Shown: positions 27,956 through 42,879 of the stretch, one piece after another
Layout: each line of letters opens with the position of its first letter
Position numbering within the stretch: position 1 is the first letter of the stretch
Source: an uncultured Rhodospirillales bacterium
GTDB taxonomy: Bacteria; Pseudomonadota; Alphaproteobacteria; Azospirillales; Azospirillaceae
NCBI GenBank assembly: GCA_903856295.1
Contig: CAIOBP010000127.1
Coordinates: forward strand, 1-45,899
Reading direction: 5' to 3'
Length of the DNA: 45,899 bases
Notes under the pieces: model-generated
Seen by the model: only the letters and a program-made list of their open reading frames with translations
The model's database searches: none
Told to the model about the DNA's origin: nothing
Translations under genes and position numbers: made by a program

Positions 27956-28579
27956 TCACCCCGAGTCGCGGGGCGAGAGGATGTCGATGGTGGTGACCAT
28001 CCGGATCAAGTCGGACAGGGACTCCGCCTCCATCTTCTCCATCATGTGGGCGCGATGGATTTCGACGGTGCGGGTGCTGACCCCGAGCCGTCCGGCGATC
28101 ACCTTGTTGGAAATGCCGGCCGCGACCAGATCCAGCACCTCGCGCTCGCGGCGACTCAACTGCTCGATCCGCTCGCGGATGCCGCGCACGACCTCCGAAG
28201 ACACCCCGCCCTGGTCGCGCAGGGAAACGATCTGCCGGATGCGCGAGACCAGCAGCGCGTTGTCGTAGGGCTTTTCGATGAAGTCGGCCGCCCCGGCCTT
28301 CATGGCCGCCACCGCGGTCGGCACGTCGCCGTGGGCGGTGATGATGATCACCGGCATGCTGGCGTGGCGCTCGCGCAGCCGCTCCAGCATTTCGAGCCCC
28401 GACATGCCGCGCATGCACACGTCGGCGATCACACAGCAGCAGCCCTCCGGATCGAAACCGTCCAGAAACGCCTCGGCCGACGCGAAGGCCTGGGGCTTGA
28501 AGCCCTTGACCGACAGCAGCATGCGCAGGGAATCGCGCACCGCGTCGTCGTCATCGACTATGCAAATGCCGTCGGTCAT
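27956..28579 (-). CDS. FixJ-type response regulator
   Basis: The product has 207 residues. The REC domain (1-120) has Asp9-Asp11, the phospho-acceptor Asp53 and Lys103 (IEKPYDN). The LuxR-type helix-turn-helix (about 138-190) contains LSRREREVLDLVAAGISNKV and VSTRTVEIHRAHMMEKM, as in FixJ and TodT. Just before Asp53 there are three Cys (47-49), and after it the usual 'DVRMPGMSG' reads DVCMRGMSG. The start overlaps the kinase stop (ATGA), so the two proteins are a cognate pair. Target genes are unknown. Confidence 0.95.
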   Translation of the reverse strand: MTDGICIVDDDDAVRDSLRMLLSVKGFKPQAFASAEAFLDGFDPEGCCCVIADVCMRGMSGLEMLERLRERHASMPVIIITAHGDVPTAVAAMKAGAADFIEKPYDNALLVSRIRQIVSLRDQGGVSSEVVRGIRERIEQLSRREREVLDLVAAGISNKVIAGRLGVSTRTVEIHRAHMMEKMEAESLSDLIRMVTTIDILSPRDSG

Positions 28580-30591
28580 TGGGCATCCTTCTCTCTTGAC
28601 GCTATCGGCAAGGTGAAGCGGAACTGCGCGCCCTCGCCCTGACTGGCCTCAAGCCACAACCGGCCACCGTGCGCTTCCACGATCGAGCGGCTGATCGACA
28701 GGCCCAGGCCCATGCCGTTGGTTTTCACGGTTTGGAAGGGCGTGAACAAGGAGCGCCGCGCCTCGGCGGACAATCCCGGGCCGGCATCGGCGACCGTCAC
28801 CGTGACCTCGCCCGAGTCGCCATCGGCGATGTGGGCCTGGAGGCTGATGGCCGGCGAGGACACGCCGGCCTCGGCCATGGCCTCGATGGCGTTGCGGATC
28901 AGGTTGTGCAGCACCTGCTGAATCTGCACGCAATCGACCAGCACCGGCGGCAGGTCCTCGGGGACCATGACCCGGATCGCGACGCCGGACTTGCGGATGT
29001 CGGCGGCGATCAGCATCAGCGCCTCGTCGACCACCTTGTCCAGGGCGTTGGCGGTGGGCATGCCGTCGCCCTGGCTGAGAAAGCGCCGCAAATGGCGGAT
29101 GATCTCGCCCGAACGATTGGCCTGGCGCGCCACCTTGCCCAAGGTTTCGGTCAGCAACTCGCGATTGTCGCCATCGGCCGCCAACTGCTGGCAGACCCCG
29201 ATGTAATTGACGATGGCGGTCAGCGGCTGATTGATTTCATGGGCCATCACCGCCGCCAGTTCACCGGTGATGGACCGGCGCGAGACCAAGGTCAGTTCCG
29301 CCTGCTTGCTTGCCAACTCCGCCTCCAGGGTCTTGCGGTCGCTGATATCGCGGGCCATCAGCGCCATTATTGGCCCACCCTCCTGTTGTGTCCAGTCCAG
29401 CGCCAATTCCACCGGCACCATCCGGCCGTCGCGGCGCTGGGCGTGGGTTTCGACGACGCTGCGCGGCCGCACCCGGACCAGATCCAAATCCGGCAGCAGC
29501 GAGTCGAGCCGCAGCCCGGCGCCGGTTTCCCGCTCCAGGCCGAACAGCCAGGCGGCGGCAGGGTTGTAGGAGCGCACCCGGCCGTCGCCATGGACGGTGA
29601 CCATGGCGTCGGGCACCGAGTCGAACTCAGTCATCAGCGGCGGTGCGGTGTCGCGCGGCGCGGCCCGCTGCCGCTGGCTCTCCCCGACCGCGGCGCCGAG
29701 CAGCAATCCGGTCAGCGCCTGGGTAATGACCATGAGATGGGTCGGCGAATAATCGCTGGGCGAGACATGTCCGAGCAGGTTGATGGTGCTGAACAGCGCG
29801 ATGCCGGTGATGAAGATCACCAGCGCCACCCCGAGCAACCCGTCGGTGAGCGACACCCAGACCATCGGCACGAAAAGCAGATAGAAGGTCTTGGACTCAT
29901 TGACCTCCGGCCAGCCGAACAGCACCGCCGCGATGCCCGCCACCAGCAGGCCCTGGACGACGGTGACCGTGGACAGCCCGTTGGACAGGTCATGCCGGCG
30001 GTGCCAGCCCTCGATGATCGTCAGGCCGGGCAGCAGCGTGAGAATGCCGATGATGTCGCCGACGAAGCGGCGCTGCCACAACGGCGCGAAGTCGCCCCAG
30101 GCGAGACCGCCAATGACCCCGATGGCGGCGACATAGGACAGGGAGATCAGCAGCGCCGACACCGTCGCCGCGCCGATGAAAATCAGGATGCGCCGCGAAG
30201 ACGGCTCCGCGACCTCGAAGGTCAGGAAGCGCCCGAAGGCCTGCGATGCCAGCAGAAACACCACCATGAGCACCGAATTGGCCCACAGCACGCCGGCCGG
30301 CGTGGCGCCGCCATGGCGCAGCAGCAGGTCGCAGCAGGCCCGGGCGGCGAAGAGCAACGGAAAGGCCGCGCCCCCCCAGCGGGTCAGCACGAAGAGACTG
30401 AGGCCCGAGAGCGGATTCCAGGCGGAAATGCCGGTGTCTTGATGGGGAAAGGGAAAGCTGACCCAATCCAGCAGCAGGTAAGCCGGGAAAAGCAGTATTA
30501 AAAACACATGCTTCCCGGTTGCGCGAACCAGCGTTCGCACCAGGGAGACAGCGTCACGGACCATGCGGCGATGATGCATCGATTGGTTCAC
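28576..30591 (-). CDS. MASE1-PAS sensor histidine kinase (FixL-like kinase core)
   Basis: The product has 671 residues. About 20-300 is a multi-helix integral-membrane sensor of MASE1 type, with NPLSGLSLFVLTRWGGA and WQRRFVGDIIGILTLLPG. A PAS domain (about 320-420) follows (FDSVPDAMVTVHGDGRVRSY). The kinase core has His451 (AVMAHEINQPLTAIVNY), the N box HNLIRNAIEAM (about 562-572), DAGPGL and MGLGLSI. No heme-binding His like that of FixL is evident in the PAS domain. In-frame ATGs at 30579 and 30564 are alternative starts. It is operonic with the FixJ-type regulator. The signal is unknown. Confidence 0.93.
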   Translation of the reverse strand: MNQSMHHRRMVRDAVSLVRTLVRATGKHVFLILLFPAYLLLDWVSFPFPHQDTGISAWNPLSGLSLFVLTRWGGAAFPLLFAARACCDLLLRHGGATPAGVLWANSVLMVVFLLASQAFGRFLTFEVAEPSSRRILIFIGAATVSALLISLSYVAAIGVIGGLAWGDFAPLWQRRFVGDIIGILTLLPGLTIIEGWHRRHDLSNGLSTVTVVQGLLVAGIAAVLFGWPEVNESKTFYLLFVPMVWVSLTDGLLGVALVIFITGIALFSTINLLGHVSPSDYSPTHLMVITQALTGLLLGAAVGESQRQRAAPRDTAPPLMTEFDSVPDAMVTVHGDGRVRSYNPAAAWLFGLERETGAGLRLDSLLPDLDLVRVRPRSVVETHAQRRDGRMVPVELALDWTQQEGGPIMALMARDISDRKTLEAELASKQAELTLVSRRSITGELAAVMAHEINQPLTAIVNYIGVCQQLAADGDNRELLTETLGKVARQANRSGEIIRHLRRFLSQGDGMPTANALDKVVDEALMLIAADIRKSGVAIRVMVPEDLPPVLVDCVQIQQVLHNLIRNAIEAMAEAGVSSPAISLQAHIADGDSGEVTVTVADAGPGLSAEARRSLFTPFQTVKTNGMGLGLSISRSIVEAHGGRLWLEASQGEGAQFRFTLPIASREKDAQ

Positions 30592-30868: not shown

Positions 30869-31657
30869 ATGGCCCAAACCGCATCTCTGCCCCGCGCCCT
30901 CCAGCGCTCCGACCAGCCGGCTCCCGCAGGCCCCAGACAGCCGCGCCCCAGCTGGTCGTCACAAGACTTAGCCCAACTGCACCAGTTTTGCGATCAGGGG
31001 CTGAGCGACGATGACATCGCCCAGTACCTGGGCCGGACCAGACGCGCGGTCAGAACCATGATCTTGCGCGTTGGCGGCCGGCGGTTGCGCGAGGCGCCGC
31101 GTCCCTGGAGCGATGCCGAGCTGGAAACCATTCTGCGGCTCAATGCCGCCAAGATGAGTTGCGGCGCCATCGCCGCGCTGCTGCCCGGCAGAACCTCGCT
31201 TGCGGTGTTCCGCAAGCTGTGCCGGCTGGTCGGCCCGGCGCCCTCGGCCGCGGCGAAACGCGTCAGGAAAGCCCGGACGCAGACCGGCGCGCCGGTGCGT
31301 GCCCCGCTTCCCACGGTCACCCCCCCCACAGTCACCAACGAGGGGGTGATTCCGATCCGGATCCACCATCCCGCTCCGCCGCCCGAGCCGCCGCCCTCGC
31401 CGGTTCCGGCGACCATCGAGGCCATCGTGCGCTGGCTGCGCTCGCGTGACTTCGTCGTCCTGCACAAGGACGATGGCTGGCGGGTCGACCAGCACCATCT
31501 CAGCGATGACGACGCCTTCCTCATGTTCGTCAACACCCGGCGGTTGCGGCTGCGCCTGCCGCTCTTTGCCCTGGAGGAGACCAAACTCGCGCCGGCCATC
31601 GCCTATCAGGCGAGCCGGTACCGTCATCAGTGGGGCCGGCGCCAAGCCCATGGCTGA
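30869..31657 (+). CDS. Two SANT/GcrA-like domains plus conserved C-terminal domain (paralogue B)
   Basis: The 262-residue product starts at the ATG preceded by GAGGTGGAAG. It has the same three-part design as the gene at 22499. The first tri-helical domain is SWSSQDLAQLHQFCDQ with GRTRRAVRTMILRVGG. The second is WSDAELETILRLNAAKMSCG with LAVFRKLCRLVG. A Pro-rich linker follows, then a C-terminal domain (about 195-245) with VRWLRSRDFVVLHKDD and WRVDQHHLSDDDA. RAVRTMILR and VRWLRSRDF are identical in both. The linker here is not repetitive. A nucleic-acid-binding role is inferred. An imperfect inverted repeat (TTAGG...CCTAA, 30671-30717) lies in the 277-base spacer upstream. Confidence 0.8.
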   Translation: MAQTASLPRALQRSDQPAPAGPRQPRPSWSSQDLAQLHQFCDQGLSDDDIAQYLGRTRRAVRTMILRVGGRRLREAPRPWSDAELETILRLNAAKMSCGAIAALLPGRTSLAVFRKLCRLVGPAPSAAAKRVRKARTQTGAPVRAPLPTVTPPTVTNEGVIPIRIHHPAPPPEPPPSPVPATIEAIVRWLRSRDFVVLHKDDGWRVDQHHLSDDDAFLMFVNTRRLRLRLPLFALEETKLAPAIAYQASRYRHQWGRRQAHG

Positions 31658-31679
31658 GCCCGCTCGCCCCGGATCGCGG

Positions 31680-33278
31680 TCATTTGTTCAGTTCGGCCAG
31701 CCCCTGCATGGCCAGGACGGAGCCGGGATCCAGCGTGAGCGCCTGTTCGAACCATCGTCGCGCCCGCGCCGTGTCGCCGCGCCGGAGCAGCGACCAGCCC
31801 AGCCCGACCTTCGGGGCGGCGAAGTCCCGGCCCGAAACATAATGATCGAGCGCGGAGAAGGTGTCTTCCGCCTCCCGGAACTGTCCGGAGAAGTAATAGG
31901 CCCAGCCCAGCCGGTCGATCGCCTCGGCGCCCCAGCCCCAGAACGGTTCGCTCGCCGGCAGCACGGCGCGGTATGCCCGGTGGGTTCTGATCGTGCCCGC
32001 GTAATCCTTGCGGAAATAGCTGACCGCCGCGCGCGCGAAGCGGACCCGGTCGTAGTCCGGCTTGATCGAGACTGCCTTGGTGAAGACCTGGTCGGCGCTC
32101 TTGTCGTGACCCAGCGCAAGCTCCGCCATGCCCTGCCCGAGCAACGCCTCTTCGGGTGGAGAACAGTGCGCGAGCGTGGCGCCCTTGAACCAGTCCAGGG
32201 CGAAGACCGGGTAGCCCAGGTAATAGTTGCTCCAGCCCATCTTGAGCTTGGCGGCGCAATCGCCGGCCACCGCCGCCCGATACAGCAAAAGCCGCGCCGC
32301 CGCGAAGTTCGCCCGGCCGTAAAAGCGCTCGCCGGCGCTCGCCAGCCAGTCCCGGACCGCCGGGTGCCGGCCCGCGACCAGATCGAGCACCTCCGCCGCC
32401 GGCAGGATTTCCGGCGACAGTGCCAGCGACTTGGCCAGCGCCGCGTCCGCTTCGGCGCTTTGCTCATCGGCGGCCAGACTCAAGGCCAGGATCATCGGAT
32501 AATAGGCGTTGGCCGGCAGCCTTTCCGCCAGCGGCGCCACCAGCTCTCCGGCGCGGCCGGGCTCGGACGACAGCAGATAGTACTTGGCCAGGGTCGGCGC
32601 CACGGTTTCGGCGCCGAATTCATCCGCCGCCTTTTGCAGCGTCGCGGCGGCGCTTTCGACATCGCCCAACCGGAACTGGAGGTCCGCCAGCATCGGCAGG
32701 ACATCGCGGCGGCCCAGATAGGCGGCGGAGGCGCCGGCCAGTTCCAGGTGCCGCAAGGCCTCCCGGCTTTCCTCGCGTTGCAGCGCCAACTGGCCCAGGC
32801 CATAATGGGCGTCGGCGGCGATACCACCGATGAAGGTGTAATCGGCGCGCTTGTAGCGCCCGCGCTTGAACGCGTCCTTCTGCCGGTGCCCATCGACCCA
32901 GTCCAGTTCCTGTTGAAAGCCGGCCTGAGCCGTCTCGGCATCCCGGCGGAAAAAAGCCAGCCAGGCACCGAACTGAATGGTCTCGATGTAATACGGGTCA
33001 AGCGCCAGCACCTGCCGGTGAACCGCCAGCGCCTCGTCGAACCGCCCCAGTTTCAGCAGCGTCCAGCCGTACAGGGTACCGAACTTCTTGGTGGTCGGGG
33101 CGAGCTTGAAGGCCTGTTCGGCAAAGAGATGCGCACGCGGATAATCCGCGAGCTTGTAGGCCTCCAGCGCGGTTGCAAAGGCAGAATCGGCATTGTCCGG
33201 GACAGAGCCCAGCGCCCAGCCCGGCAACACTGGGCATATCCATAAAACCAACAGCATTATCGCGGCAACAATCCTCAT
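31680..33278 (-). CDS. Exported TPR protein, last gene of the UT-M23 cluster
   Basis: The start at 33278 (MRIVAAIMLLVLWICPVLPG) gives a 532-residue protein with a signal peptide; a start six codons upstream is less likely because GGAAAGCG precedes the chosen ATG. Several TPRs can be seen, for example YPRAHLFAEQAFKLAP, GRFDEALAVHRQVLALDP, HDKSADQVFTKAVSIKPDYD and DTARARRWFEQALTLDPGSV. The middle is more divergent. It probably acts as a periplasmic scaffold for the other products. It lies 43 bases after the smaller TPR gene and converges with paralogue B. Confidence 0.82.
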   Translation of the reverse strand: MRIVAAIMLLVLWICPVLPGWALGSVPDNADSAFATALEAYKLADYPRAHLFAEQAFKLAPTTKKFGTLYGWTLLKLGRFDEALAVHRQVLALDPYYIETIQFGAWLAFFRRDAETAQAGFQQELDWVDGHRQKDAFKRGRYKRADYTFIGGIAADAHYGLGQLALQREESREALRHLELAGASAAYLGRRDVLPMLADLQFRLGDVESAAATLQKAADEFGAETVAPTLAKYYLLSSEPGRAGELVAPLAERLPANAYYPMILALSLAADEQSAEADAALAKSLALSPEILPAAEVLDLVAGRHPAVRDWLASAGERFYGRANFAAARLLLYRAAVAGDCAAKLKMGWSNYYLGYPVFALDWFKGATLAHCSPPEEALLGQGMAELALGHDKSADQVFTKAVSIKPDYDRVRFARAAVSYFRKDYAGTIRTHRAYRAVLPASEPFWGWGAEAIDRLGWAYYFSGQFREAEDTFSALDHYVSGRDFAAPKVGLGWSLLRRGDTARARRWFEQALTLDPGSVLAMQGLAELNK

Positions 33279-33321
33279 CGTCGCTTTCCATGCCATGGCT
33301 GCATCGGGTTTTCCCTGTCCA

Positions 33322-33954
33322 TTACCGGGGGCTTACTTTCAGAAACCGTCTGGCCGCCACGTTTTCCGGGTCGAGAATCAGGGCGTCCTTGAACAGCCCG
33401 GTCGCCTCGGCGAGATCGCCCAGTTCGCTTCTGACCGTCGCGAGTTCGACCAGAAAGAAAACATCGGTGGGAAACAGCGCCAGCATGTCGCGGGCCACCC
33501 GCTCGGCCTGATCCAGCTTGCCCTGAAGATGCAACAGGCTGACCAGCCGCTGATTGCCGTAGTAGTTGAAGCGGTCGACGGCCAGTATCTGCTGAACCAC
33601 GAGAAACGCCTCATCGGCCCGGCCGAGCGCCAGCAACGGGTAAAGCAGGCCCAACCGGGCCTCCAGCGAGGCCGGCACGGCGTCGAGCGCCTTGCGGTAA
33701 TAGGTGATGGCGTTGGCATAGCCGGCGCGAAGATAGTAGAGCCAGCCCAACCTCAGATTGACCGTGTAGCCGTTCGGATAGGCGTCGGCGACCGGAACCA
33801 GGGCCTTGATGGCGTCGTCATAGGCCTGAGTCCGCTCATAGCCATAGGAGCGATAATAGGCCGACTGGATTTCGTCGGGAGTCAGGGCCTGGGCCGCGGG
33901 CACGGCGGCAAAAAAAGCAATGATCAGACCGGCCGTCGCCAGAAAGCGCATCAT
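33322..33954 (-). CDS. Small exported TPR protein in the UT-M23 cluster
   Basis: The 210-residue product has a signal peptide (MMRFLATAGLIIAFFAAVPA, cleavage near AQALTP). At least four TPR-like helical pairs follow: AYDDAIKALVPVADAYPNG, GYANAITYYRKALDAVPAS, KLDQAERVARDMLALFPTD and DLAEATGLFKDALILDPE. The start overlaps the stop of the urea-channel/M23 gene (ATGA), so it is translationally coupled to it. It likely works with that protein or the larger TPR protein in the envelope. Confidence 0.82.
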   Translation of the reverse strand: MMRFLATAGLIIAFFAAVPAAQALTPDEIQSAYYRSYGYERTQAYDDAIKALVPVADAYPNGYTVNLRLGWLYYLRAGYANAITYYRKALDAVPASLEARLGLLYPLLALGRADEAFLVVQQILAVDRFNYYGNQRLVSLLHLQGKLDQAERVARDMLALFPTDVFFLVELATVRSELGDLAEATGLFKDALILDPENVAARRFLKVSPR

Positions 33955-36125
33955 GACATCCCCTCACTGCCCGGCCCGCCGAGATGCGCGCCGAAATCCT
34001 TGCCGCGAACCGAACCGCTGACCCGCCGCAACGCCAAATCATCAACGCGGATGGTCTTGAAGCCCAAGCCCTCCTCCAGTTCGACCGACACCGACCGCTG
34101 GAAGCGCAGCAGCGGATACGAGACGACGCCGCTGATTTCCCGCCGCCCGATCCGCCGCAAATCGACCCGGATGTCGGCGATGTTGGGCACCACCGAGGCC
34201 ACCAGCAGCAGGAAATCCTTGATCATCCCGGAAAACAGAATGCCGATCGGCAGATGATCGCTCCAGCGCAAGCCGTCGCGGGCCGATAGCGGCAACCGGG
34301 GCAGCGCCATGAACAGCGCCCGCAAATACGGGTCATCACCGACCAAACTGTAGACATAAAACGTGCCCTGCTGGGTGCCGACATACAGTTTGCCCCGGCC
34401 CGAGTCCAGATAGGTCGAGCCATCGGGGGCGCAGCGCACGACAAAGGTCAACTCCCCGACCCGGCGCATGCCCCGGAAGACTTCATACTGATGGCAGTCA
34501 TCGAGCAGGAAGGTCACCATCGCCTCTTGCTCCTTGTCGGGGAAGCAGGGCTCGACCTCCTCGCCTTCGACCACCGGTTCATTGGCGCGATACTTGCCGC
34601 CCGACAGATAACTGACGAAGCCGAAGGGCAGCGTCGCCGCGCCAACCCGGTCGCTGATCTGAACCTGAATGTGCAAATGCGGCTGCGGCGAATAGCCGGA
34701 ATTGCCGCAGCGTCCGAGCAGGGTGCCGCATTCCACCCAATCGCCCTCGGCCACCCGGATCGAGCCCTGGGCGAAATGGGCGAGGCAGATGTAGCTGCCC
34801 CACACATCCTGCATGATAATCACGTTGCCCCAGCGATGAACGGTTTCGACCTGCCCGATCGGATTGTCGGGGATGCCCTTCTCGACCTTGAGCACCCGTC
34901 CGCGCGCCGGCGAGAGCACCGGCTTGTTGTAGGCATGATAGTCGGTCACCACCCGCCCCTCGCCGCTGAAGGTCAGGCCGTCGGGGCCGCGGATCACGAA
35001 GTCATAGGCGTGGCGCAAGGCGCCCTGGTGGGTCCAGCGGGCGTCGCAGCCCTGCCAGACCACCCAGCGGCCGGAAAAAGGCAAGGTCAACGCCACCGCG
35101 GTGCCCCGGTAGCGCCGGACATCCGATAGATAATAATCGAGAGTCTCCTCCGGGGTCTCGCGAATGAAACGGGCCATCCGGGGAAATCCCGTGGAACCCA
35201 GGACGTACAAGAACAGCAGTGTGGTCAAGATATAGGTCGGCGTATTCAGCGGCAGGACGAAGCCTGACACGCCGAAACCAGACCAGAACACCTTGAAAGC
35301 TTCCAGCACGATCGCCGAGACCAGAACCCCGAGCAGCGCCACCGCGTAAGACCAGCGCGAGGGCACCAGAAACACCCCGCCCAGCGCCATCGCGATCAGA
35401 ATGAAATTGAAATGGCTGACATCCCGGAACGCGACATCGAACGACCCGGCCAGCAGGGCGACAAAGGCGGTTCCGGCATAATATCCAATAATACTGAGAA
35501 ACAGCAGTATGCGCGATGACACCGCCAGCACCAGGGTGAACAGCAGCCCGGGCAAGACATCCGGCAGAAATAAAATCGTACCCATGCTCTTCAGAAAGCC
35601 GGAAATCTCCAGCGGCAGGTAGGTCTCCAGCCCGGAATGCGGGCGGTTATAGAGCGCCGAGACATACAAATTGGGAAAACGCGCCGCCGCCAGATAGGTT
35701 GTCCAGGTTACCAGCGTGAACGGCACACCGAATACCGGCAGCTTCAGATAAATCGTGAACAGACTGTGCAGAGTCAGGGTGGCGACAAAGGCCAGAATTC
35801 CGGCCGCCATCACAAACAGCAAGGTCAGCAGCGTGACCTTGAAAAGATAGCCAATGGCCAGCCCAACCAGCAACGCATTGTATGTATAAAATCCCGAGGC
35901 CAGGAAACCGCGATCAATGGCAATGAAGCGGGCGAACACATAGGCCGCGATCACCGCCACCAAGCCGGCAATCGCGGCGTTCGGATTGAGGAAGGTGATC
36001 GCCATCACCATGGCGCCGAAATTGCGCCCGCGCAGGAAGAATACCTCGGAATAGCTGCACAGGATCGCATCGCCGTAACTGCGCATCCGCTCCTGCCAGC
36101 TTTCCCAGGATACCTGGATCATCAC
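33951..36125 (-). CDS. Urea-channel (UT) domain fused to an M23 peptidase domain
   Basis: The product has 724 residues. About 10-330 is a multi-helix membrane region of the urea transporter family, with the two internal-repeat motifs LPVFGVPF (129-136) and VLPLNTPTYILTT (about 290-302) and GFYTYNALLVGLAIG. About 340-490 is an M23/LytM-type domain: HAYD (372-375), KPVLSPARGRVLKVEKGIPD, His450 (CLAHF), GTLLGRCGNSGYS and HLH (483-485). The His/Asp metal ligands are present, but the first motif is HxxD, one residue shorter than the usual form. A further ~230 residues follow. M23 enzymes cut peptidoglycan peptides. Which side of the membrane the domain faces is not clear, because UT channels normally have an even number of helices. 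Substrate unknown. Confidence 0.85.
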   Translation of the reverse strand: MMIQVSWESWQERMRSYGDAILCSYSEVFFLRGRNFGAMVMAITFLNPNAAIAGLVAVIAAYVFARFIAIDRGFLASGFYTYNALLVGLAIGYLFKVTLLTLLFVMAAGILAFVATLTLHSLFTIYLKLPVFGVPFTLVTWTTYLAAARFPNLYVSALYNRPHSGLETYLPLEISGFLKSMGTILFLPDVLPGLLFTLVLAVSSRILLFLSIIGYYAGTAFVALLAGSFDVAFRDVSHFNFILIAMALGGVFLVPSRWSYAVALLGVLVSAIVLEAFKVFWSGFGVSGFVLPLNTPTYILTTLLFLYVLGSTGFPRMARFIRETPEETLDYYLSDVRRYRGTAVALTLPFSGRWVVWQGCDARWTHQGALRHAYDFVIRGPDGLTFSGEGRVVTDYHAYNKPVLSPARGRVLKVEKGIPDNPIGQVETVHRWGNVIIMQDVWGSYICLAHFAQGSIRVAEGDWVECGTLLGRCGNSGYSPQPHLHIQVQISDRVGAATLPFGFVSYLSGGKYRANEPVVEGEEVEPCFPDKEQEAMVTFLLDDCHQYEVFRGMRRVGELTFVVRCAPDGSTYLDSGRGKLYVGTQQGTFYVYSLVGDDPYLRALFMALPRLPLSARDGLRWSDHLPIGILFSGMIKDFLLLVASVVPNIADIRVDLRRIGRREISGVVSYPLLRFQRSVSVELEEGLGFKTIRVDDLALRRVSGSVRGKDFGAHLGGPGSEGMS

Positions 36126-36133
36126 AGCAATCC

Positions 36134-37489
36134 CTAGTAATTCAGCTTAAGTCTTGTCGGCAACCGCTCGCGCCGCTGAATGTCGCTGATGTCCTCCGCC
36201 TCGCGAATGACTTCCACCCCTTTATTTTCATCGATCAGTACAACGGCCGGACGGTATTCGATGAATTGCATCCACTGGGTGACGCTATACGCCCCAACAG
36301 GGGACAAGATCAGTCGGGTGCCGCGCGCCAGCGGCGGCAACAACACCCCCTCGTCGACCACATCGATATTCATGCAGAGCGGGCCATAAAGCACCGTCGG
36401 CTCATTGATACCGCGAACTTCCTTTTCAATCTCGATAGTGAACTTGTACCACGCCGTCGTGTACAGCAGATTGATTCCGGCATCCATGACATAGGCCCGC
36501 CGGCCGTCGGGCAGACGCTTGGTTGCCGAGATGGTGGCGATCAGGTACCCGGCCTCATCGACGATCGCGCGCCCGGATTCCAGGATCAGGCGCGGAAAAT
36601 CGCCCGGGCGCAGGGTGTTGAACAGGGCTTCGGAAATCTTCTCGGCATAGACGTCGATCGGCTCCAGCGCCATCTCGGCCGGCAAATAACTGCTCTTGAG
36701 CCGGCTGGTCGACGGAAAACCACCGCCGAGATCAAGATATTCGATGTCATATCCCAGTTCATCCCTGAGCTTGTAGCCAAGCTTGACCAGCTTTTCGACC
36801 GCGACACCATAGGCATCCGGCTTCATGATATAGGTGCCGATGTGGCAATGCAGGCCATTGATGATCAGCTTCTTCTCGCGATGAATGCGCTTGGCCACAT
36901 CGAACGCCTGACCGGTATCGAGATTGAGGCCGAAGCGCGACCATTGGGGCTGAATGCCCGTATCGAGATTGAGGCGCAGCCCGACCCGAATTTCGCGCCC
37001 GAGCTTTACCGCCAGCGCTTCCAGGTCTGAAATCTCATCAAGGTGATCAACGTGGATCTGTGCGCCTTCAAGAACCGCCCGCTCCAGGGATGCCAGGCTC
37101 TTGTGAGGACCGTTATAGATGATGTTCGAGCCAGGAACGCCCAAACGGCGCGCCATATCATATTCCATTTCGGACACAACCTCGGCCAGCGCGCCCTCCT
37201 GGTGGCAGATGGCGCAAATCGCCGCCAAATAGTTGGTCTTGTAGGACCAGCCGAAGACAACGTTGGGATAGCGGGTGGTAAAGGCGTCCCTGACCTCACG
37301 GAACCGGCGGCGCAAGGTCGCTTCCGAGAAGACGAATAGCGGAGAGCCGAAGCGTTCGACCAGCTCGGCGATCGGAATCGCATCGATGGTATCCCGAACC
37401 TTCCGCGCGAAGTTCGGACTGCTGGCGAATTTGTTCATCAAACCCGAGTGAAGCTTTTGAATAACCGGGCGTTCATAGGGGGTACGCAT
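36134..37489 (-). CDS. LysA-like PLP-dependent decarboxylase with altered motif
   Basis: This is a 451-residue fold-type III (alanine racemase/ornithine decarboxylase) enzyme. PLP Lys84 is in WSYKTNYL, the HCHIGT motif is at 214-219, DLGGGFP at 253-259, ESGRAIVDEAGY near 304, and GAYS at 399-402. In diaminopimelate decarboxylase the active-site loop reads C-E-S-x-D; here it is GPLCMNIDVV, so Cys372 is kept but the Glu is lost. The substrate is therefore probably not meso-DAP. The start shares a base with the stop of the ATP-grasp gene (TGATG), which implies coupling. Confidence 0.88.
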   Translation of the reverse strand: MRTPYERPVIQKLHSGLMNKFASSPNFARKVRDTIDAIPIAELVERFGSPLFVFSEATLRRRFREVRDAFTTRYPNVVFGWSYKTNYLAAICAICHQEGALAEVVSEMEYDMARRLGVPGSNIIYNGPHKSLASLERAVLEGAQIHVDHLDEISDLEALAVKLGREIRVGLRLNLDTGIQPQWSRFGLNLDTGQAFDVAKRIHREKKLIINGLHCHIGTYIMKPDAYGVAVEKLVKLGYKLRDELGYDIEYLDLGGGFPSTSRLKSSYLPAEMALEPIDVYAEKISEALFNTLRPGDFPRLILESGRAIVDEAGYLIATISATKRLPDGRRAYVMDAGINLLYTTAWYKFTIEIEKEVRGINEPTVLYGPLCMNIDVVDEGVLLPPLARGTRLILSPVGAYSVTQWMQFIEYRPAVVLIDENKGVEVIREAEDISDIQRRERLPTRLKLNY

Positions 37490-38526
37490 CAGTTTTCTCC
37501 CCTGGTGACCATTTTCTGAAACGTGGTCAGGTCGGTGATCAGCTCTTCGGTGTGGCGCACGTAAAGCCGCCCGGTCTCGTAAGTCTCGGGCGCAACCGGC
37601 GGCAAGCCGAGCGCGGTGCGGACGATCGCGGCGGGCAGATTGACCCCAACCGCGGTCGCAAAGTAAACCCAGGCCGGAAAGCGGGGGTTTATCTCGATTA
37701 GATAGACTTTTTCACCGTCGGCGATGCATTCCAACTCGAACGCGCCACGCCAGCGGTAGACTTCCATGAAACGATAGGCGGCGTCGATCATCGGTTGATT
37801 GCGCACGGTCACGCCGGTCCAGATTTTTCCGATCGACGTCGTGCTGATTTTCTTCATGCCGACCTGACCGAGACAGCCGCCCTCGCCATCGCCCAGCGCG
37901 ATCATGTTGAGTTCTTCGCCCTTGACGATCTCCTGAAGAATGATCGGATAGCCGGACTGGGCGAGCATGGAGTGAAAACAGTCGAAGGCCTCTTGCGTGG
38001 TATAGGCGCGCAACGCATTATAGTGCGTGCCCTTGACCACCAGAGGAAAGGTCAATTCCTTCATGGCCGCGTTCAGATCATCGACCGAGGAGACAACCCG
38101 CGTCTTGGGCAGGCTCAATTCAATGGCCGGCGCGACTTCAACCAGCCTATCCTTACCGCGCAACTTGAATTGCTTGGGCGTGGGCAGAAAAGTCGCAATC
38201 CCCTCCTGGGCCAGCGCCTGTTCGATCCGGGTGAACAGCGGCAATTCGATATCAAGACAGGGAATGACGAAATCGAGCCCGGCCACCGATTTGATATAGC
38301 GCAACCGCTCGAGCAGCGCCCCCGGACCGGCGGAAGCATAGGGAATGATGAAGGAGCGATCGATCACCCAGTCCAAGTAAATGCCGGTTTCCATCGCGTC
38401 ATAGGCCAGACCGATCACCCGGACGTCGAGATCCCGAGCCTCCTTGAGAGAGCGCGCCACCCCCACCCCTGGACCAGGATTGTCCGAGGAATTGATCCCG
38501 GTCACCCCGACGACGATTTCCGGCAT
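37489..38526 (-). CDS. ATP-grasp ligase
   Basis: The 345-residue form from the ATG at 38526 (GAGGGG upstream) is preferred over a GTG at 38541 that overlaps the preceding stop. The N-terminal Rossmann-like part starts MPEIVVGVTGINSSDNPGPG. The ATP-grasp part includes LPKTRVVSS, FPLVVKGTHYNALRAY, IILQEIVKGEELNMIALGD and the Mg-binding FELECIADGEKVYLIEINPR. Such enzymes join a carboxylate to an amine or thiol through an acyl phosphate. The carbamoyl-phosphate-synthetase-like type is common in amino-acid ligases. The substrate is unknown; the PqqD-like and decarboxylase neighbours suggest a peptide or amino-acid-derived product. Confidence 0.88.
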   Translation of the reverse strand: MPEIVVGVTGINSSDNPGPGVGVARSLKEARDLDVRVIGLAYDAMETGIYLDWVIDRSFIIPYASAGPGALLERLRYIKSVAGLDFVIPCLDIELPLFTRIEQALAQEGIATFLPTPKQFKLRGKDRLVEVAPAIELSLPKTRVVSSVDDLNAAMKELTFPLVVKGTHYNALRAYTTQEAFDCFHSMLAQSGYPIILQEIVKGEELNMIALGDGEGGCLGQVGMKKISTTSIGKIWTGVTVRNQPMIDAAYRFMEVYRWRGAFELECIADGEKVYLIEINPRFPAWVYFATAVGVNLPAAIVRTALGLPPVAPETYETGRLYVRHTEELITDLTTFQKMVTRGEN

Positions 38527-38537
38527 CGACTGGCCCC

Positions 38538-38777
38538 TCACTCGATAATATTCAGAATTCGGAGATGATAAATGAAATCAAATACATCATGATCGGCATC
38601 CTGACCTGTGACGTCAAACGCATCGGCAAGCTCGAGCGAGACCTCTTGCGGGCTCTTTTCAGACTTCAAAAGATTAATTATAAATGCCGCTGTGCTGTTG
38701 CAGGTAAACGACTCACCGGTGGTCGGATCAAAGGCAAATCCGTCATTATGAACCAGTATCTGCCTCAGTCGCGACAT
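38538..38777 (-). CDS. PqqD-family protein (peptide-binding RRE-like)
   Basis: The ATG at 38777 has GAGGGCG upstream and gives 79 residues; upstream in-frame sequence is probably not translated. The PqqD pattern is clear: GFAFDPTTGESFTCNSTAAF, then a Leu-rich helix (IINLLKSEKSPQEVSLELAD), Asp-rich FDVTGQDADHDV, and FIYHLRILNII. In peptide-modifying pathways this winged-helix fold recognises a leader peptide; in others it binds partner proteins. I see no small precursor gene in the flanking 57 to 97 bases. It sits between the porin and ATP-grasp genes on the same strand. Confidence 0.82.
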   Translation of the reverse strand: MSRLRQILVHNDGFAFDPTTGESFTCNSTAAFIINLLKSEKSPQEVSLELADAFDVTGQDADHDVFDFIYHLRILNIIE

Positions 38778-38873
38778 CGCCCTCGCCTTTTCCCCGACAG
38801 CTTGGCCCCGCCTCATTGTTTACCAGCCCGCTGGGTTTCGTTCAATCGAATCCACCGGCGCGCCCCCGGCCGT

Positions 38874-40169
38874 TCAGAATGAGATGACACTCTTCCATAA
38901 AATCGCCGTGGCATTGCCACTGCCGAAGCCCGTGAAGGCCGACGACCCCTGAGCATCATTGCCAAACCCATCGGTCACGAATCCCGCCTCGTTGCGCGTG
39001 ATGCTGCGCAAATATTCAATGCCGGTGACGAAGCCCGGCGAAAGAACATAGCTGGCACCGGTCGCGTAGAGATTGGCCGTGCGCTTACCCGGCACCGTCG
39101 GATCCCCGGCATCCTGGCCATAGGCATAGTTGAACCCGATCACCAGCGGCCCCATTTCATAGGTTATACCGGCCGTAACTGTTGATTGGTCATCGAGAAA
39201 CAGGTCGGTTCCCCGTGAATAGGCCGATCGCCCGGCATTGAGATAACTGCCGCCGATCAAAACCCCGGCATAGCCAAGCTGAAAGCCGGCCTGATAGGCC
39301 GACAGATTATAATAACCGCCCGGATTGGCGCCGTTGCTGGTCGGCGCCTCCCCCCGTTCGTAAGCGGCGCCTGCAACCAGACTGACCTTTTTGAACGAAC
39401 CGTCGTACCGGAACCCCGCCTCGGCGATGTTTTTATAGTGGCACCCCAAGGTCGGCGCCGTTCCCTGCTGGCTGCAAAAGTCATTGCCTGACGACGCTCC
39501 CGGCACCACGGTGGTCAAGCGATAGCCCCGGTTGGCATTGGTATTGACGCTGAGGTTCCGGGGGGCATACGACACATAGCCCATCAGCCCGGTGTATTCG
39601 TCTTCCTGAGTCAGGACCCGCGGCGAGAAGTAGCTCAGTCTGGTCGCCCAGTAACTCTTGGTGATGTTGTTGTAGCCTCCGCCGAAGACCGGTTCAAGAA
39701 ACGTCGTCTGGTTATTAATGACGGTATTTCTTCCCTGACCCTCGGCCCAGTCGCCGATCACGCCGCCGGTCCCGAAGCCGCCGGGCGCGGTGACGCCGAA
39801 CTGATGGTTCGGGCTGGCATTGACCCCCGCCTCGAGCCGGCCGAAGGCACCATCGGCGAAGAGATAGGCCTGATCGGCGTCGATCAACCCATCGGTGCCC
39901 TTGGCGCGCAGGCGCAGGCTCGCGCCATATTCCAAGCCATTGTCGGCGATCGCCCTGGGCACGATTTGCAAGCGGAATTGATTGGCGAAATCGAGGCTGC
40001 CCGAGACGCTGTTGGCGGCATCGTAGCTCTGACTGACATAAACCGAGGAGAAGGTGGCGTCGCCGGCAATGCGGATGGCGAACTTGCCCGGAGACGTCTC
40101 GGCGACGGCGGCGCCACACCCTGTGGCGAGCCAGACCACGGCGCATCCCCTGAGACTCACGCCCTTCAT
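38874..40169 (-). CDS. Outer membrane porin
   Basis: The product has 431 residues. The start at 40169 (MKGVSLRG) is preferred to a TTG two codons earlier. The signal peptide ends near AAVAETS. The mature sequence shows alternating beta-strand patterns (FRLQIVPRAIADNGLEYGAS; LVIGFNYAYG; YVLSPGFVTGIEYL) and ends in Phe (WKSVISF), as outer-membrane beta-barrels do. It matches the general porin type common in Rhodospirillales (Porin_4-like). It is the first gene of the UT-M23 cluster strand. The distance from its stop to the PqqD start is 96 bases, so co-transcription is possible but not proved. Confidence 0.88.
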   Translation of the reverse strand: MKGVSLRGCAVVWLATGCGAAVAETSPGKFAIRIAGDATFSSVYVSQSYDAANSVSGSLDFANQFRLQIVPRAIADNGLEYGASLRLRAKGTDGLIDADQAYLFADGAFGRLEAGVNASPNHQFGVTAPGGFGTGGVIGDWAEGQGRNTVINNQTTFLEPVFGGGYNNITKSYWATRLSYFSPRVLTQEDEYTGLMGYVSYAPRNLSVNTNANRGYRLTTVVPGASSGNDFCSQQGTAPTLGCHYKNIAEAGFRYDGSFKKVSLVAGAAYERGEAPTSNGANPGGYYNLSAYQAGFQLGYAGVLIGGSYLNAGRSAYSRGTDLFLDDQSTVTAGITYEMGPLVIGFNYAYGQDAGDPTVPGKRTANLYATGASYVLSPGFVTGIEYLRSITRNEAGFVTDGFGNDAQGSSAFTGFGSGNATAILWKSVISF

Positions 40170-40198
40170 ACCCAAACCCGCCCGTCTCCAGAAGGCGG

Positions 40199-40228
40199 TA
40201 TTGAGCCCGGTTACACCACACCTGTCAA
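40199..40228 (-). promoter_or_regulatory. Likely promoter of the porin gene
   Basis: On the minus strand TTGACA (40228-40223) is followed after 18 bases by TCAATA (40204-40199), about 30 bases before the porin start. The -35 is perfect and the -10 weak. Confidence 0.4.
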
Positions 40229-40354
40229 TCGGATCAAACGAGTTTCACGCTTCGCCTGCAGACTTGATCCAGATTTGACACAGGCCGGACAGCGGCGCGC
40301 CGATTCCGGCCACCCCAGCACGCGTGCGCCACGCCACCGTACACGCGCAAGGAG

Positions 40355-40414
40355 CCGGCGCCAGCGCCCCTGGCGCCGGGGGCAGCGGTCCCCTGCGCCG
40401 GGGGCGGCGCAGGG
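40355..40414. terminator. Two tandem GC hairpins before the porin promoter
   Basis: CCGGCGCCAG (40355-40364) pairs with CTGGCGCCGG (40370-40379). CCCTGCGCC (40391-40399) pairs with GGCGCAGGG (40406-40414). They lie 20 to 80 bases past the stop of the DUF882 gene (40437) and probably end its transcript before the porin region. No T-run is present. Confidence 0.55.
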
Positions 40415-40436
40415 CATCCTGGCCCACGCTGTCGCC

Positions 40437-41030
40437 TCAGGCGCCCCAATGCCGCAGCGGGCCGACATCGACATGAATGAAACCGCTGTCGGGATAATAG
40501 CCAACGCCACCGGCCCGCAGCGACAGCGCCGCACGGTGCAGGCGGGACAGGCTGTAACCCGGCAGGTAGATGTCCGCCGCCATGCCCTTGATGTGGTAGC
40601 TGTGCTGGGCGACACCGCCGCCCCGGTCGCTTTCCATCAGCCAGCTGTTGGTCTGCTGCGAGCGATAGCCGGACACGATGTGGAACGGCTCCTGCGCCCC
40701 GACCTTGCGCTTGAGCGCGTAGAGGGCGTCGATCAGGTGCGGATCGATCCGGTGAACGGCGCCGGTGCGGTGATCGCGAAACAGCTTGTTGATCGCGCGC
40801 AGGGCGTCAGGCAGATAGCGGCCCTTGACCCAATATTCGGCGGTCAAACGCTCGCCGGTGTGCTGGTTGAGGAAAGCCAGCTTCCGATGAACTCTGGCCG
40901 GGTGAGGAACCGCCCAAGCATCGGCCGGCGCCAACACGGAAGCGGCTAGTGCAGCCGCAGTCCCAAGTCGGAGAAAATCGCGGCGCCCGACCTGCTCGGC
41001 CGATTCAAACCGATAATCCTCGATCGACAT
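40437..41030 (-). CDS. Tat-exported YcbK/DUF882 (M15-like) protein 1
   Basis: The 197-residue product starts with a twin-arginine signal (Arg16-Arg17 in GRRDFLRLG, then AAALAASVLAPADAWA). The mature domain is DUF882, related to M15 carboxypeptidases of peptidoglycan. The likely zinc ligands are His146 and Asp153 (HIKGMAAD) and His186 (FIHVD). E. coli YcbK sits beside the L,D-transpeptidase gene ycbB, and the same pairing occurs here. Its role is probably cell-wall peptide trimming, but activity is not shown for the family in general. Confidence 0.9.
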   Translation of the reverse strand: MSIEDYRFESAEQVGRRDFLRLGTAAALAASVLAPADAWAVPHPARVHRKLAFLNQHTGERLTAEYWVKGRYLPDALRAINKLFRDHRTGAVHRIDPHLIDALYALKRKVGAQEPFHIVSGYRSQQTNSWLMESDRGGGVAQHSYHIKGMAADIYLPGYSLSRLHRAALSLRAGGVGYYPDSGFIHVDVGPLRHWGA

Positions 41031-41490
41031 GAAACCTCCCCTCAATCATCAGACAACAAACCAAAGCAATTGTCAGGTGTTTACCCGACATCCCTTTTGA
41101 ATCGCTTCCACCCTGTTGTGTCAAGTCAGTATTTTCACAAATACCCAAAACAAGGCATGTCAACATCAAATACAGGCCTATAAAGACCGAAAACTGCGAC
41201 ATGCTGTCGCAGTTTTCGGATAAGATTTTAAAATGATCGTCTTAAATATCGATAAATTTGCGGCGCGTTGACAATTCGGCAACTCGAGCCGCAGCCTCTT
41301 GGGCTTAAAGTGGTATCCGGCCAAGTTAAGCCGGCACCACCGTTATCATGGCCAAACTCGACCCCGGCATCCACGCGACTTCACAAGCGCCGGAGCTGGC
41401 GGAAAGACGCGGATGACCACATCAAGCCCAGCTGCAACGGATCGACACAACGGATAGATGTGGAGTGATGCAACCCGACCGGTAACCGCC
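41031..41490. other. 460-base spacer between the two DUF882 genes
   Basis: I see no gene I can support here. Short open frames have poor codon pattern and no ribosome binding site. The region is AT-richer than its neighbours at 41150-41270 and contains a perfect 14-bp hairpin (41187-41219, listed separately). It must hold the promoter of the gene at 40437-41030. Confidence 0.6.
41187..41219. promoter_or_regulatory. Perfect 14-bp hairpin upstream of DUF882 protein 1
   Basis: CCGAAAACTGCGAC (41187-41200) pairs exactly with GTCGCAGTTTTCGG (41206-41219) around a 5-base loop. It lies 157 bases before the start of DUF882 gene 1. On the minus strand the stem is followed by TCTTTATA. It could be a terminator of the upstream gene (stop at 41491), an attenuator, or a protein-binding palindrome. 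Confidence 0.6.
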
Positions 41491-42480
41491 TCAGCGCCCG
41501 CCAGCCAAATGCGGCTTGCGGCGCAGAACGAAGCTGTCGGCATGGGTCGGCGACACATCGCGCATGGCGACCCGCATCGGCTTATGCCCGGGCTTCGGCG
41601 CCATCGCGACATCTCCGCCACTCGGGGCGAAGATACGGCGGCGCGGCACCACGGCCTCGGCGGCCGGCGGGGGCGGTTCGGCGGCGGCCATGGCCGGCTC
41701 GGATGCAGGCGCAGGCGCGGCCGAAACCGGCTCGGCCGAAGCGAATGCGGGTTCGGGCTCGGCGGGATGCTGGATCATGCCAGGGTCCCCACCCTGCCCG
41801 ACTTCCGGGGTCTCGGAGAGCAGAGCATCGCGCCACGCCGGGATTTCGCCGATATCGTCGTCGGAGAAATGATGGCGACCGCCGCCCCAGGTCCGAACCG
41901 GGCCGGTATCGACATGAACGAAGTTGCTGCTCGGATAGTAGCCGACGCCGCCAGCGCGCAGCGACAGCGCCGCCGAATGCAGCGAACTCAGGCCACAGCC
42001 GCTCATGCGAATATCGACCGCCTTGCCCTGCATGTGCAGGCTGTGGCTGGCGACACCGCGATGGTGAATGCGCAGGCGGGCATTGGTGCGCGGCGAGCGA
42101 TAGCCGCAAACGATCTGCACCGGGCTGCACGCCCCGGTCATGCGAAAAATGCCATACATCACATCGACCAGACGGGGATCGATGATATGGACGCTGCCGT
42201 CGTGGCGATCCCGCAGCAGGTGGCTGATCGAGCGCAGGGCGTCGGTGATGTAGCGGCCCTTGACCCAGTAATCGACGGTCTGGTGTTCCTGGGTGGCGCT
42301 GTTGACCAGGGTCAATCGACGGACCGGACCGCCAAGACCAAACTGGTCGCCGCCAATAGAGGCCAGCGCCTGGATAGGATCAAAAATCGCCGCCGAGGCG
42401 AGCGCAGCGGCACCGAACCGAAAAAGTCTACGGCGGCTAAAGGGTGAACCCTCCCTGGACGCGGTACTATCATCCGTCAT
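41491..42480 (-). CDS. Tat-exported YcbK/DUF882 protein 2, with long C-terminal tail
   Basis: The ATG at 42480 follows a strong GGGGAGG. The 329-residue product has a twin-arginine signal (SRRRLFRFGAAALASAA) and a DUF882 domain similar to protein 1: YWVKGRYITDALRSI, His149 with Asp156 (HMQGKAVD), and His189 (FVHVD). GLSSLHSAALSLRAGGVGYY matches a block in protein 1 almost exactly. Residues 200-329 are a Pro/Ala-rich tail with basic segments (VVPRRRIFAPSG; FVLRRKPH) that could bind the cell wall. It looks like a tandem duplicate with an added tail. Confidence 0.9.
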   Translation of the reverse strand: MTDDSTASREGSPFSRRRLFRFGAAALASAAIFDPIQALASIGGDQFGLGGPVRRLTLVNSATQEHQTVDYWVKGRYITDALRSISHLLRDRHDGSVHIIDPRLVDVMYGIFRMTGACSPVQIVCGYRSPRTNARLRIHHRGVASHSLHMQGKAVDIRMSGCGLSSLHSAALSLRAGGVGYYPSSNFVHVDTGPVRTWGGGRHHFSDDDIGEIPAWRDALLSETPEVGQGGDPGMIQHPAEPEPAFASAEPVSAAPAPASEPAMAAAEPPPPAAEAVVPRRRIFAPSGGDVAMAPKPGHKPMRVAMRDVSPTHADSFVLRRKPHLAGGR

Positions 42481-42879
42481 GGAGCCTCCCCTTTCGTCTG
42501 CGCAGGCTGTTTCAACCATCCCGTGGCCGATCGAAAATCAGTCTTTTCGTATCGCCTGCAGACGTTTGGACCCGACCAGCTTGCCACTGTCAAGCAAAAA
42601 ACTGGGGAAAATTTCAGTGCTTTGATTTCAGGGGGGTTTCTCTTCCAAGCCCGGCAGCACATCCTCCCGCACTGCGTCAATGCGTCGCACCATACGAGAG
42701 AATCAGGCGCCGGGCCGGTCTCCGATTCTCTCCCCCGCAACGCAACACCGGCCAGCTCCCAGATGATGACGGGCGCGCCCGCCCGACCCCTAAGGGTGGC
42801 CTTGGAGAGAAAGTCGAGAGAGGCCGGCGCCGTTGATCTGGCCAGCTTGGTCGGATCAACGGCGCCGGGGTCTCCACCA
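42481..42879. other. 399-base spacer with no gene
   Basis: There is no supported gene between DUF882 protein 2 and the L,D-transpeptidase. A TTGACA on the minus strand (42603-42598) may belong to the promoter of DUF882 protein 2, but no matching -10 is clear. The transpeptidase terminator hairpin lies at 42824-42868. Confidence 0.5.
42824..42868 (-). terminator. 15-bp perfect hairpin after the L,D-transpeptidase gene
   Basis: CCGGCGCCGTTGATC (42824-42838) pairs exactly with GATCAACGGCGCCGG (42854-42868) around a 15-base loop, 12 bases past the gene's stop on the minus strand. No T-run follows. Confidence 0.6.

Follow-up and report, generated by a model that had tools for sequence, protein, structure and literature searches.

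A conserved cluster of ligase, decarboxylase and urea-channel-peptidase genes as a candidate biosynthesis and transport system

Seven open reading frames (ORFs), all on the minus strand, fill positions 31680-40169 of a 45,899-nucleotide contig from an uncultured Rhodospirillales bacterium (CAIOBP010000127.1; this whole stretch is referred to as the window). The question raised is whether a porin, a PqqD-like protein, an ATP-grasp enzyme, a decarboxylase, a urea channel fused to an M23 peptidase (UT-M23) and two TPR proteins can belong to one pathway and, if so, what that pathway would do. The original prediction, made without database searches, read the set as a possible undescribed pathway; its seven same-strand genes are borne out and each domain name was confirmed by Pfam. 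Comparison with other genomes gives a divided answer. The genes from PqqD through the first TPR gene are a real unit, held together across many phyla, and no description of the ligase-decarboxylase-channel gene set was found in the open-licence literature searched, but the porin does not belong to it, the second TPR gene has a clear counterpart in one other locus only and a role in wall modification is disfavoured. The unit is most likely an uncharacterised system for biosynthesis and transport, and it is larger and better conserved than a reading of the window alone could show.

Conservation of the gene unit

The original prediction had proposed searching for co-occurrence of the fusion with PqqD-like and ATP-grasp genes. 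This search was run in 398 genomes of the same phylum and showed the genes to be kept together. The UT-M23 protein matched 37 genomes at E <= 1e-20, of which 35 were kept, since two (G387, G449) matched through the M23 part only; among the 35, G322 carries the UT part only, at a contig end, and in G274 the fusion is split over two contigs. An ATP-grasp profile also matched 37 genomes, and both proteins occur in 32 genomes from 10 families, against a chance expectation of about 3 if genome kinship is ignored. Three genomes have the fusion without the ATP-grasp enzyme: G102 and G129 carry replacement enzymes, described below, and the G229 contig starts inside the decarboxylase. Five have the enzyme without the fusion, two of them cut by contig ends (G233, which retains a UT fragment, and G254); the others are G118, G181 and G221.

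Among named genomes, the best 80 of 295 encoding stretches from one scan with the UT-M23 alignment (the named loci) were compared. Their record titles include Persephonella, Calditrichota, Gemmatimonadetes, Verrucomicrobia, Ignavibacteria, Nitrospinia, Thermotogota, Desulfobacterales, Shewanella, Thiomargarita, Planctomycetota and one cyanobacterium, with Shewanella surugensis DSM 17177 and Thermodesulfatator autotrophicus S606 (L163) among the isolates. The recurring order is PqqD, ATP-grasp, decarboxylase, UT-M23, outer-membrane barrel and TPR, and because other families and phyla share both the genes and their order, the arrangement is not a matter of chance. Profiles matched UT and M23 in all 80 loci, the C-terminal domain of the fusion in 79, decarboxylase in 62, TPR in 59, ATP-grasp in 57, barrel in 56, PqqD in 53 and an Orn/Lys/Arg (OKR) decarboxylase in 6.

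Many of these contigs are short. The counts that follow are for loci with at least 3.5 kb upstream or, for the downstream genes, at least 2.5 kb downstream. The full fusion is present in 79/80 loci, 55 of which have sufficient upstream sequence; PqqD, ATP-grasp and decarboxylase are all found there in 44, the decarboxylase without both others in 1, a replacement decarboxylase in 6 and neither decarboxylase in 4. Downstream, 67 named loci qualify, with a TPR gene in 57, a barrel gene in 50 and neither in 10. The phylum set, with its 33 loci, behaves alike: 29 encode the full fusion, and the 25 with enough upstream flank contain either the triple (23) or the replacement (2). Twelve named loci have neither decarboxylase, and nine of these were traced into their genomes, where the ATP-grasp gene lies on another stretch in 7/9, adjoined by PqqD in 7/7; the decarboxylase was found in 5/7 short loci. 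True separation of the two parts is supported by upstream sequence in L101 and L111 only, and the others may be contig breaks. Furthermore, pairwise distances of the cluster parts correlate across the 80 loci (r 0.75-0.96, against a maximum of 0.18 in 300 permutations per pair, species ancestry being ignored).

Identity to the window fusion reaches 52% (best segment) in records from other phyla and 44% within the sampled phylum, which suggests that the cluster spread by horizontal transfer or was repeatedly lost. The fusion has no match in 4 genomes of the same genus, and the rest of the family gives M23-only or UT-only matches; an empty-site comparison within the genus revealed no such site, since wherever a relative matches both flanks these sit on different contigs. 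Beyond the core, no gene family is present in more than 11/81 loci, and the recurring neighbours scanned are mostly two-component regulators. Such regulators also lie near the cluster in the window (28576-30591 and 27956-28579) and elsewhere (L072:53-2775; L097:2720-4793), but they are common genes and their presence may be chance. An 11-locus family represented by L116:14242-15723 follows the TPR gene in Verrucomicrobia-type loci, and one member scanned ends in an endosialidase-chaperone (S74) domain. Two metagenome-assembled genomes titled Akkermansia muciniphila and Klebsiella pneumoniae (L136, L152) share the extended gene order of the Verrucomicrobia loci, and their titles are probably wrong.

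The edges of the set fared less well. The porin had been taken as a pathway member, but paralogues occur in all 4 same-genus genomes (best copies 56-57% identical), which carry neither UT-M23 nor the ATP-grasp enzyme of the cluster, and the cluster loci compared contain no counterpart; it was rejected as a cluster part. Of the two TPR proteins placed in the set, the first is conserved, whereas the second has a clear counterpart in L060 only.

The channel-peptidase fusion

At the centre of the unit lies a fusion whose AlphaFold2 model has a mean confidence (predicted local distance difference test, pLDDT) of 91 over the whole protein. Its UT domain scores 184.9 bits in Pfam against a cut-off of 25 and in the model matches the UT fold over its whole length (Z 35-36 to dvUT and human UTs). 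The M23 domain matches LytM-type domains at Z of about 12-14, and the residues that the M23 motif leads us to assign as zinc ligands and catalytic groups (H366, D375, H450, H483 and H485) are kept in 79-80/80 sequences, the remainder being gaps. The C-terminal domain finds its best matches in YmcC-like lipoproteins (Z 9.9 and 9.7, VIA-align), with no Foldseek match at E <= 0.001.

The channel resembles dvUT (3k3f) in its entire fold, at Z 35.8, and in the positions we take to be the Phe ladder of the urea channel (F30 kept in 63/65 sequences, F186 in 64/65). It departs from dvUT in its altered pore residues and in the added M23 and third domains. In the 65 sequences, dvUT Q24 becomes E27 in 44, E187 becomes A, S or T183 in 61 and T130 becomes S133 in 60; the equivalent of T294, T290, is kept in 48/65 but not in the window protein. 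These dvUT positions, which vary among UTs, are presumed here to have pore roles. Because the pore residues differ from those of dvUT, plain urea is not an obvious substrate.

Several observations bear on the side of the membrane on which the M23 domain lies. UTs have 10 helices (PMC10541013), so both ends should be on one side. The fold match runs to residue 334 of 3k3f, and the fusion is rich in Lys and Arg before residue 20 and after residue 310 and poor in them in the loop between the UT halves. In known UTs, the termini face the cytosol. In one relative (L089:12882-14600) the UT is joined not to M23 but to a SIR2 deacylase (sirtuin), and the operon also encodes PqqD, two ATP-grasp domains and a FigC-like decarboxylase. 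In three loci a second UT protein carries a TPR block between its halves (L085:1894-3459; L087:4897-6819; L088:4072-5643; all on minus strands); both halves were detected in L087, the second half is weak in L085 and it is recognised by alignment only in L088. Both free TPR proteins of the window begin with what looks by eye like a signal peptide. Taken together, UT topology, charge bias, the sirtuin variant, the TPR block between UT halves and these free TPR starts indicate that the M23 domain is probably cytosolic.

The opposite arrangement, a periplasmic M23 domain cutting the wall or an exported peptide while the enzymes modify wall peptides, draws on the conserved zinc and catalytic residues (79-80/80), on nearest solved M23 structures that are largely wall hydrolases and on a C-terminal domain resembling periplasmic folds. 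Against this, topology, charge bias, sirtuin variant and TPR insertion all put the C-terminus in the cytosol, and related M23 proteins occur in haloarchaea, which to our knowledge have no murein. A periplasmic peptidase is thus judged unlikely, and the earlier suggestion that the set modifies the wall is disfavoured on the same topological grounds. Relatives of the M23 domain in Thermus and a haloarchaeon (L173:3815-4774, L174:3743-4669) have N-terminal hydrophobic segments followed by Arg and Lys, judged by eye, which suggests membrane-anchored M23 proteins facing the cytosol.

The second UT proteins of L085, L087 and L088 also adjoin an asparagine-synthase-like gene, and this bears on an osmolyte system, in which a neutral peptide-amide would be stored in the cytosol, with UT, TPR and barrel as a release valve and M23 for breakdown. 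The genes for N-acetylglutaminylglutamine amide pair a ligase with an amidotransferase and a peptidase, and the UT fold passes small neutral amides. The L088 protein, the one of the three that was scanned, does match the N-acetylglutaminylglutamine amidotransferase model, at 197.8 bits and below its cut-off of 570.1, but it passes the plain asparagine synthase model TIGR01536 (343.9 against 267.1), the gene is found in 3 loci only, and a decarboxylase leaving a free amine fits a neutral osmolyte poorly. An osmolyte role is unlikely, while remaining the most probable of the alternatives.

Ligation and decarboxylation

The strongest sign of what the enzymes are for comes from eight loci in which they are replaced (Shewanella L128, L134, L139 and L147; L130 and L150; L081 and L083 of the phylum set). 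Beside the same UT-M23, all eight encode an OKR decarboxylase, a different ATP-grasp enzyme and a TPR protein; a C45-type hydrolase and a barrel are present in 7/8, L150 ending at a contig edge, and PqqD has no match in 8/8. No locus has both decarboxylases, which are unrelated by profile comparison, and the two ATP-grasp families show only a weak relation (hhalign probability 52%). Since two unrelated decarboxylases with two ligases stand beside the same channel, we infer that the purpose is ligation and decarboxylation of an amine-bearing amino acid.

The usual decarboxylase was originally called LysA-like. It does belong to the fold-III group, but profile comparison makes FigC/FslC-like the better name: the profile matches N-citrylornithine decarboxylase (7kh2) at E 1.3e-86 and the best diaminopimelate (DAP) decarboxylase at 3.6e-61. 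It scores below the NCBIfam cut-offs for both FslC (226.3 against 500 bits) and lysA (217.6 against 297.9). FigC, SbnH, AcsE, MccE, BtrK and DAP decarboxylase form one clade, the first five using conjugated amino acids; next to its catalytic Cys, FigC has a Met instead of the Asp that binds the side chain, its Arg290 and Tyr331 point toward the amide, and His357 and Arg387 serve citrate (PMC7857480). Among 80 cluster sequences the residues facing PLP and the amide are retained: K84 is kept in 78 (2 gaps), R307 in 80, Y348 in 77 (3 F) and M373 in 79, the last three aligning with FigC R290, Y331 and M355; the citrate residues H357 and R387 are replaced by I375 (79/80) and Q405 (80/80). With N-citrylornithine decarboxylase as nearest relative, and the amide-side residues kept but not the citrate ones, the enzyme probably acts on an amide-conjugated amino acid whose acyl partner, by the same residues, is probably not citrate.

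Rhizoferrin synthesis is accordingly the closest parallel for the decarboxylase (FigC/FslC, 7kh2), with the same alanine-racemase-fold group, the R290, Y331 and M355 equivalents and ligation followed by decarboxylation as the likely order. It differs in using an NRPS-independent siderophore (NIS) synthetase where the cluster has an ATP-grasp ligase, and a major facilitator superfamily transporter where the cluster has a UT channel, and the citrate residues are not kept here. The FigC/FslC kinship would fit a product that binds metal, such as a siderophore like rhizoferrin or staphyloferrin B, but the replacement of the citrate-binding residues by I and Q speaks against it, as does the lack of any NIS synthetase or TonB receptor among those recurring neighbours that were scanned, which are a part of all neighbours; such a metal carrier is improbable.

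For butirosin side-chain synthesis (BtrI, BtrJ, BtrK and BtrG), BtrJ is an ATP-grasp ligase and BtrG an amide-splitting enzyme that removes the cap. The likeness lies in a small protein, an ATP-grasp ligase, a decarboxylase working on a conjugate and later removal of the cap. BtrK is described as decarboxylating an amino acid conjugated to BtrI (PMC7857480). The small protein here is, however, PqqD-like without an invariant Ser, Cys or Lys, and a channel and envelope parts are added. LysW amino-carrier lysine synthesis likewise uses ATP-grasp ligation, modification while conjugated and release by a zinc peptidase, but the peptidase here is M23 and fused to the channel. In the fungal E-64 pathway, as far as the sections drawn on describe it, an ATP-grasp amide ligase also stands alongside a pyridoxal phosphate (PLP) decarboxylase, the source of a diamine. 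That diamine, however, arises in free form and is attached by an ANL-type synthetase, and those sections describe no channel or PqqD (PMC12568646).

The ATP-grasp enzyme itself has invariant K130, K170, E271, E283 and N285 (18 sequences), probably the ATP/metal site, and its nearest solved relative, 2pn1, has a general name only. The PqqD-like protein of the window falls below the model for PqqD of pyrroloquinoline quinone synthesis (TIGR03859; 18.7 against 46 bits), and its S36 is kept in 90% or more of sequences. In 16 phylum loci (e.g. L072:5413-6231), most of them in family f61, a longer protein at the operon head ends in the PqqD domain; the one that was scanned has a TetR-type start, a fusion that hints at a tie to regulation.

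PqqD-type proteins are binders of precursor peptides and ATP-grasp enzymes are makers of graspetides (PMC8939145), and the cluster could on that basis be a pathway for a ribosomally synthesised and post-translationally modified peptide, with PqqD presenting an unrecognised precursor to the ligase. No precursor peptide gene had been noticed originally, and a BLAST comparison of 18-75-codon ORFs within 2 kb of the cluster loci, run without a positive control, likewise found no precursor family. Among small ORFs common to at least 3 loci, the 15 largest groups were inspected and resemble antisense shadows of other genes. Given also that the replacement variant lacks a PqqD match in 8/8 loci, this is the least probable of the alternatives considered.

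The proposed system and the window's own copy

The reading preferred here, tentatively and at somewhat less than an even chance, is a system dedicated to making and exporting a small molecule derived from an amino acid. With the PqqD-like protein as adaptor, the ATP-grasp enzyme would couple the side-chain amine of a diamino acid to a carboxylate as an amide, or form some comparable conjugate. The FigC-like decarboxylase, to judge from its subfamily and residues, would then strip the alpha-carboxyl from the conjugate and not from the free amino acid. Where the modified urea channel opens to the cytosol, the M23 domain would cut the conjugate, and the freed small product would exit through the channel; this action of M23 on an amide conjugate is the proposed reaction, and a sirtuin, which takes the place of M23 in one relative, is likewise an enzyme that takes acyl groups off amines. 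Finally, transfer of the product across the outer membrane would fall to the periplasmic TPR protein, joined in most relatives by the outer-membrane barrel. We infer the substrate, direction and product of this system. The reverse direction, uptake and use of external amides with barrel and UT importing and M23 cleaving, gains from the fact that channels work both ways and that TPR and barrel are envelope parts, but ATP-dependent ligation and decarboxylation point to synthesis, and uptake is a shade more improbable than a metal carrier.

Several observations weigh against the export system. The window copy has no barrel gene, and the barrel profile has no match in the window's genome, in a search run without a positive control. 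At its second pore motif the window channel has five extra residues, unique to it among 65 sequences, in a region of uncertain alignment where the model confidence is about 70. G118, G181 and G221 carry the genes for PqqD, ATP-grasp and decarboxylase, yet nothing in these three genomes matches UT at E <= 1e-6, and conversely L165 and L167 have UT-M23 with upstream flank, but none of the enzymes nearby, in genomes without an ATP-grasp enzyme of the cluster family. The weak LolA/YmcC likeness of the C-terminal domain is to proteins that are periplasmic. The UT-sirtuin fusion was seen in a single genome (93% complete, 7% contamination), and no other genome represents its order. Known M23 enzymes cut peptides, and the UT pore is narrow and might exclude a diamine.

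A broader claim, held with appreciably more reserve than the system itself, is that the cluster embodies a new export route: a urea-type channel with an amide-splitting enzyme (M23 or sirtuin) on its cytosolic mouth. A molecule would be kept captive in the conjugate built by ligase and decarboxylase, be released at the channel and nowhere else, and move on to a periplasmic TPR protein and an outer-membrane barrel. Within the open-licence literature searched, the novelty lies in the assembly and not in the parts. If the proposal is correct, bacteria with records named Persephonella, Verrucomicrobia, Gemmatimonadetes, Calditrichota, Shewanella, Thiomargarita and others make an unknown metabolite, an attached hydrolase has turned a passive urea-type channel into the gate at which the product is released, and 'urea transporter' annotations in bacteria become less safe as a sign of urea uptake. 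The isolates S. surugensis DSM 17177 and T. autotrophicus S606 make the system testable.

Table 1. Features of the cluster, in window coordinates
Feature	Coordinates	Strand	Basis
PqqD-family small protein	38538..38816	-	Pfam PqqD 4.3e-9; adjoins ATP-grasp in relatives
ATP-grasp ligase, CPS-like (PRK12767) group	37489..38541	-	Pfam ATPgrasp_Ter 1.0e-9
Alanine-racemase-fold PLP decarboxylase, FigC/FslC-like	36134..37489	-	Pfam Orn_Arg_deC_N 9.2e-33; profile comparison; residue census
UT-M23 fusion (urea channel, M23 metallopeptidase, beta-rich C-terminal domain)	33951..36125	-	Pfam; predicted structure
UT domain, fusion residues 10-335	35121..36098	-	Z 35.8-35.9 to 3k3f/3m6e over 314 residues
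M23 domain, fusion residues 340-515	34581..35108	-	Z 14.4 and below to LytM-type domains
C-terminal domain, fusion residues 516-710, weakly YmcC/LolA-like fold	33996..34580	-	Model pLDDT 94
First TPR protein, conserved system part	33322..33954	-	Pfam TPR; signal-peptide-like N-terminus (by eye)
Second, longer TPR protein	31680..33296	-	Pfam TPR; counterpart in L060 only

Within the window, the UT (2.5e-54) and Peptidase_M23 (9.9e-11) Pfam matches fall in one ORF, and the gene upstream of PqqD is a Porin_4 member (6.7e-29). The tight junctions first described were found again: TGATG between ATP-grasp and decarboxylase, with base 37489 common to both, ATGA between UT-M23 and TPR at 33951-33954, and 8 bases between decarboxylase and UT-M23. 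The gaps of 11 bases (PqqD to ATP-grasp) and 43 bases (TPR to TPR) hold with internal ATG starts at 38526 and 33278, but not with the longest ORFs, in which the end of PqqD and the beginning of ATP-grasp share 4 bases and the TPR genes are 25 bases apart; the ATP-grasp gene may start at GTG 38541 or ATG 38526. Family alignment places the PqqD start probably at an internal ATG, 38777, which leaves the porin stop 96 bases upstream. Within 31400-40600, promoter-like matches (2, against 2.5 +/- 1.8 in shuffles) and terminator-like matches (10, against 8.4 +/- 3.6) are not above chance. Among the genes of the set PqqD is lowest in G+C, at 48.7%, where the window as a whole has 65.8%. Other genes of the window are one for a GcrA-type protein (29.1 bits, cut-off 26.9), which points to an alphaproteobacterium, and, just past the porin, two for DUF882 (M15-type) peptidases at 40437-41045 and 41491-42519.

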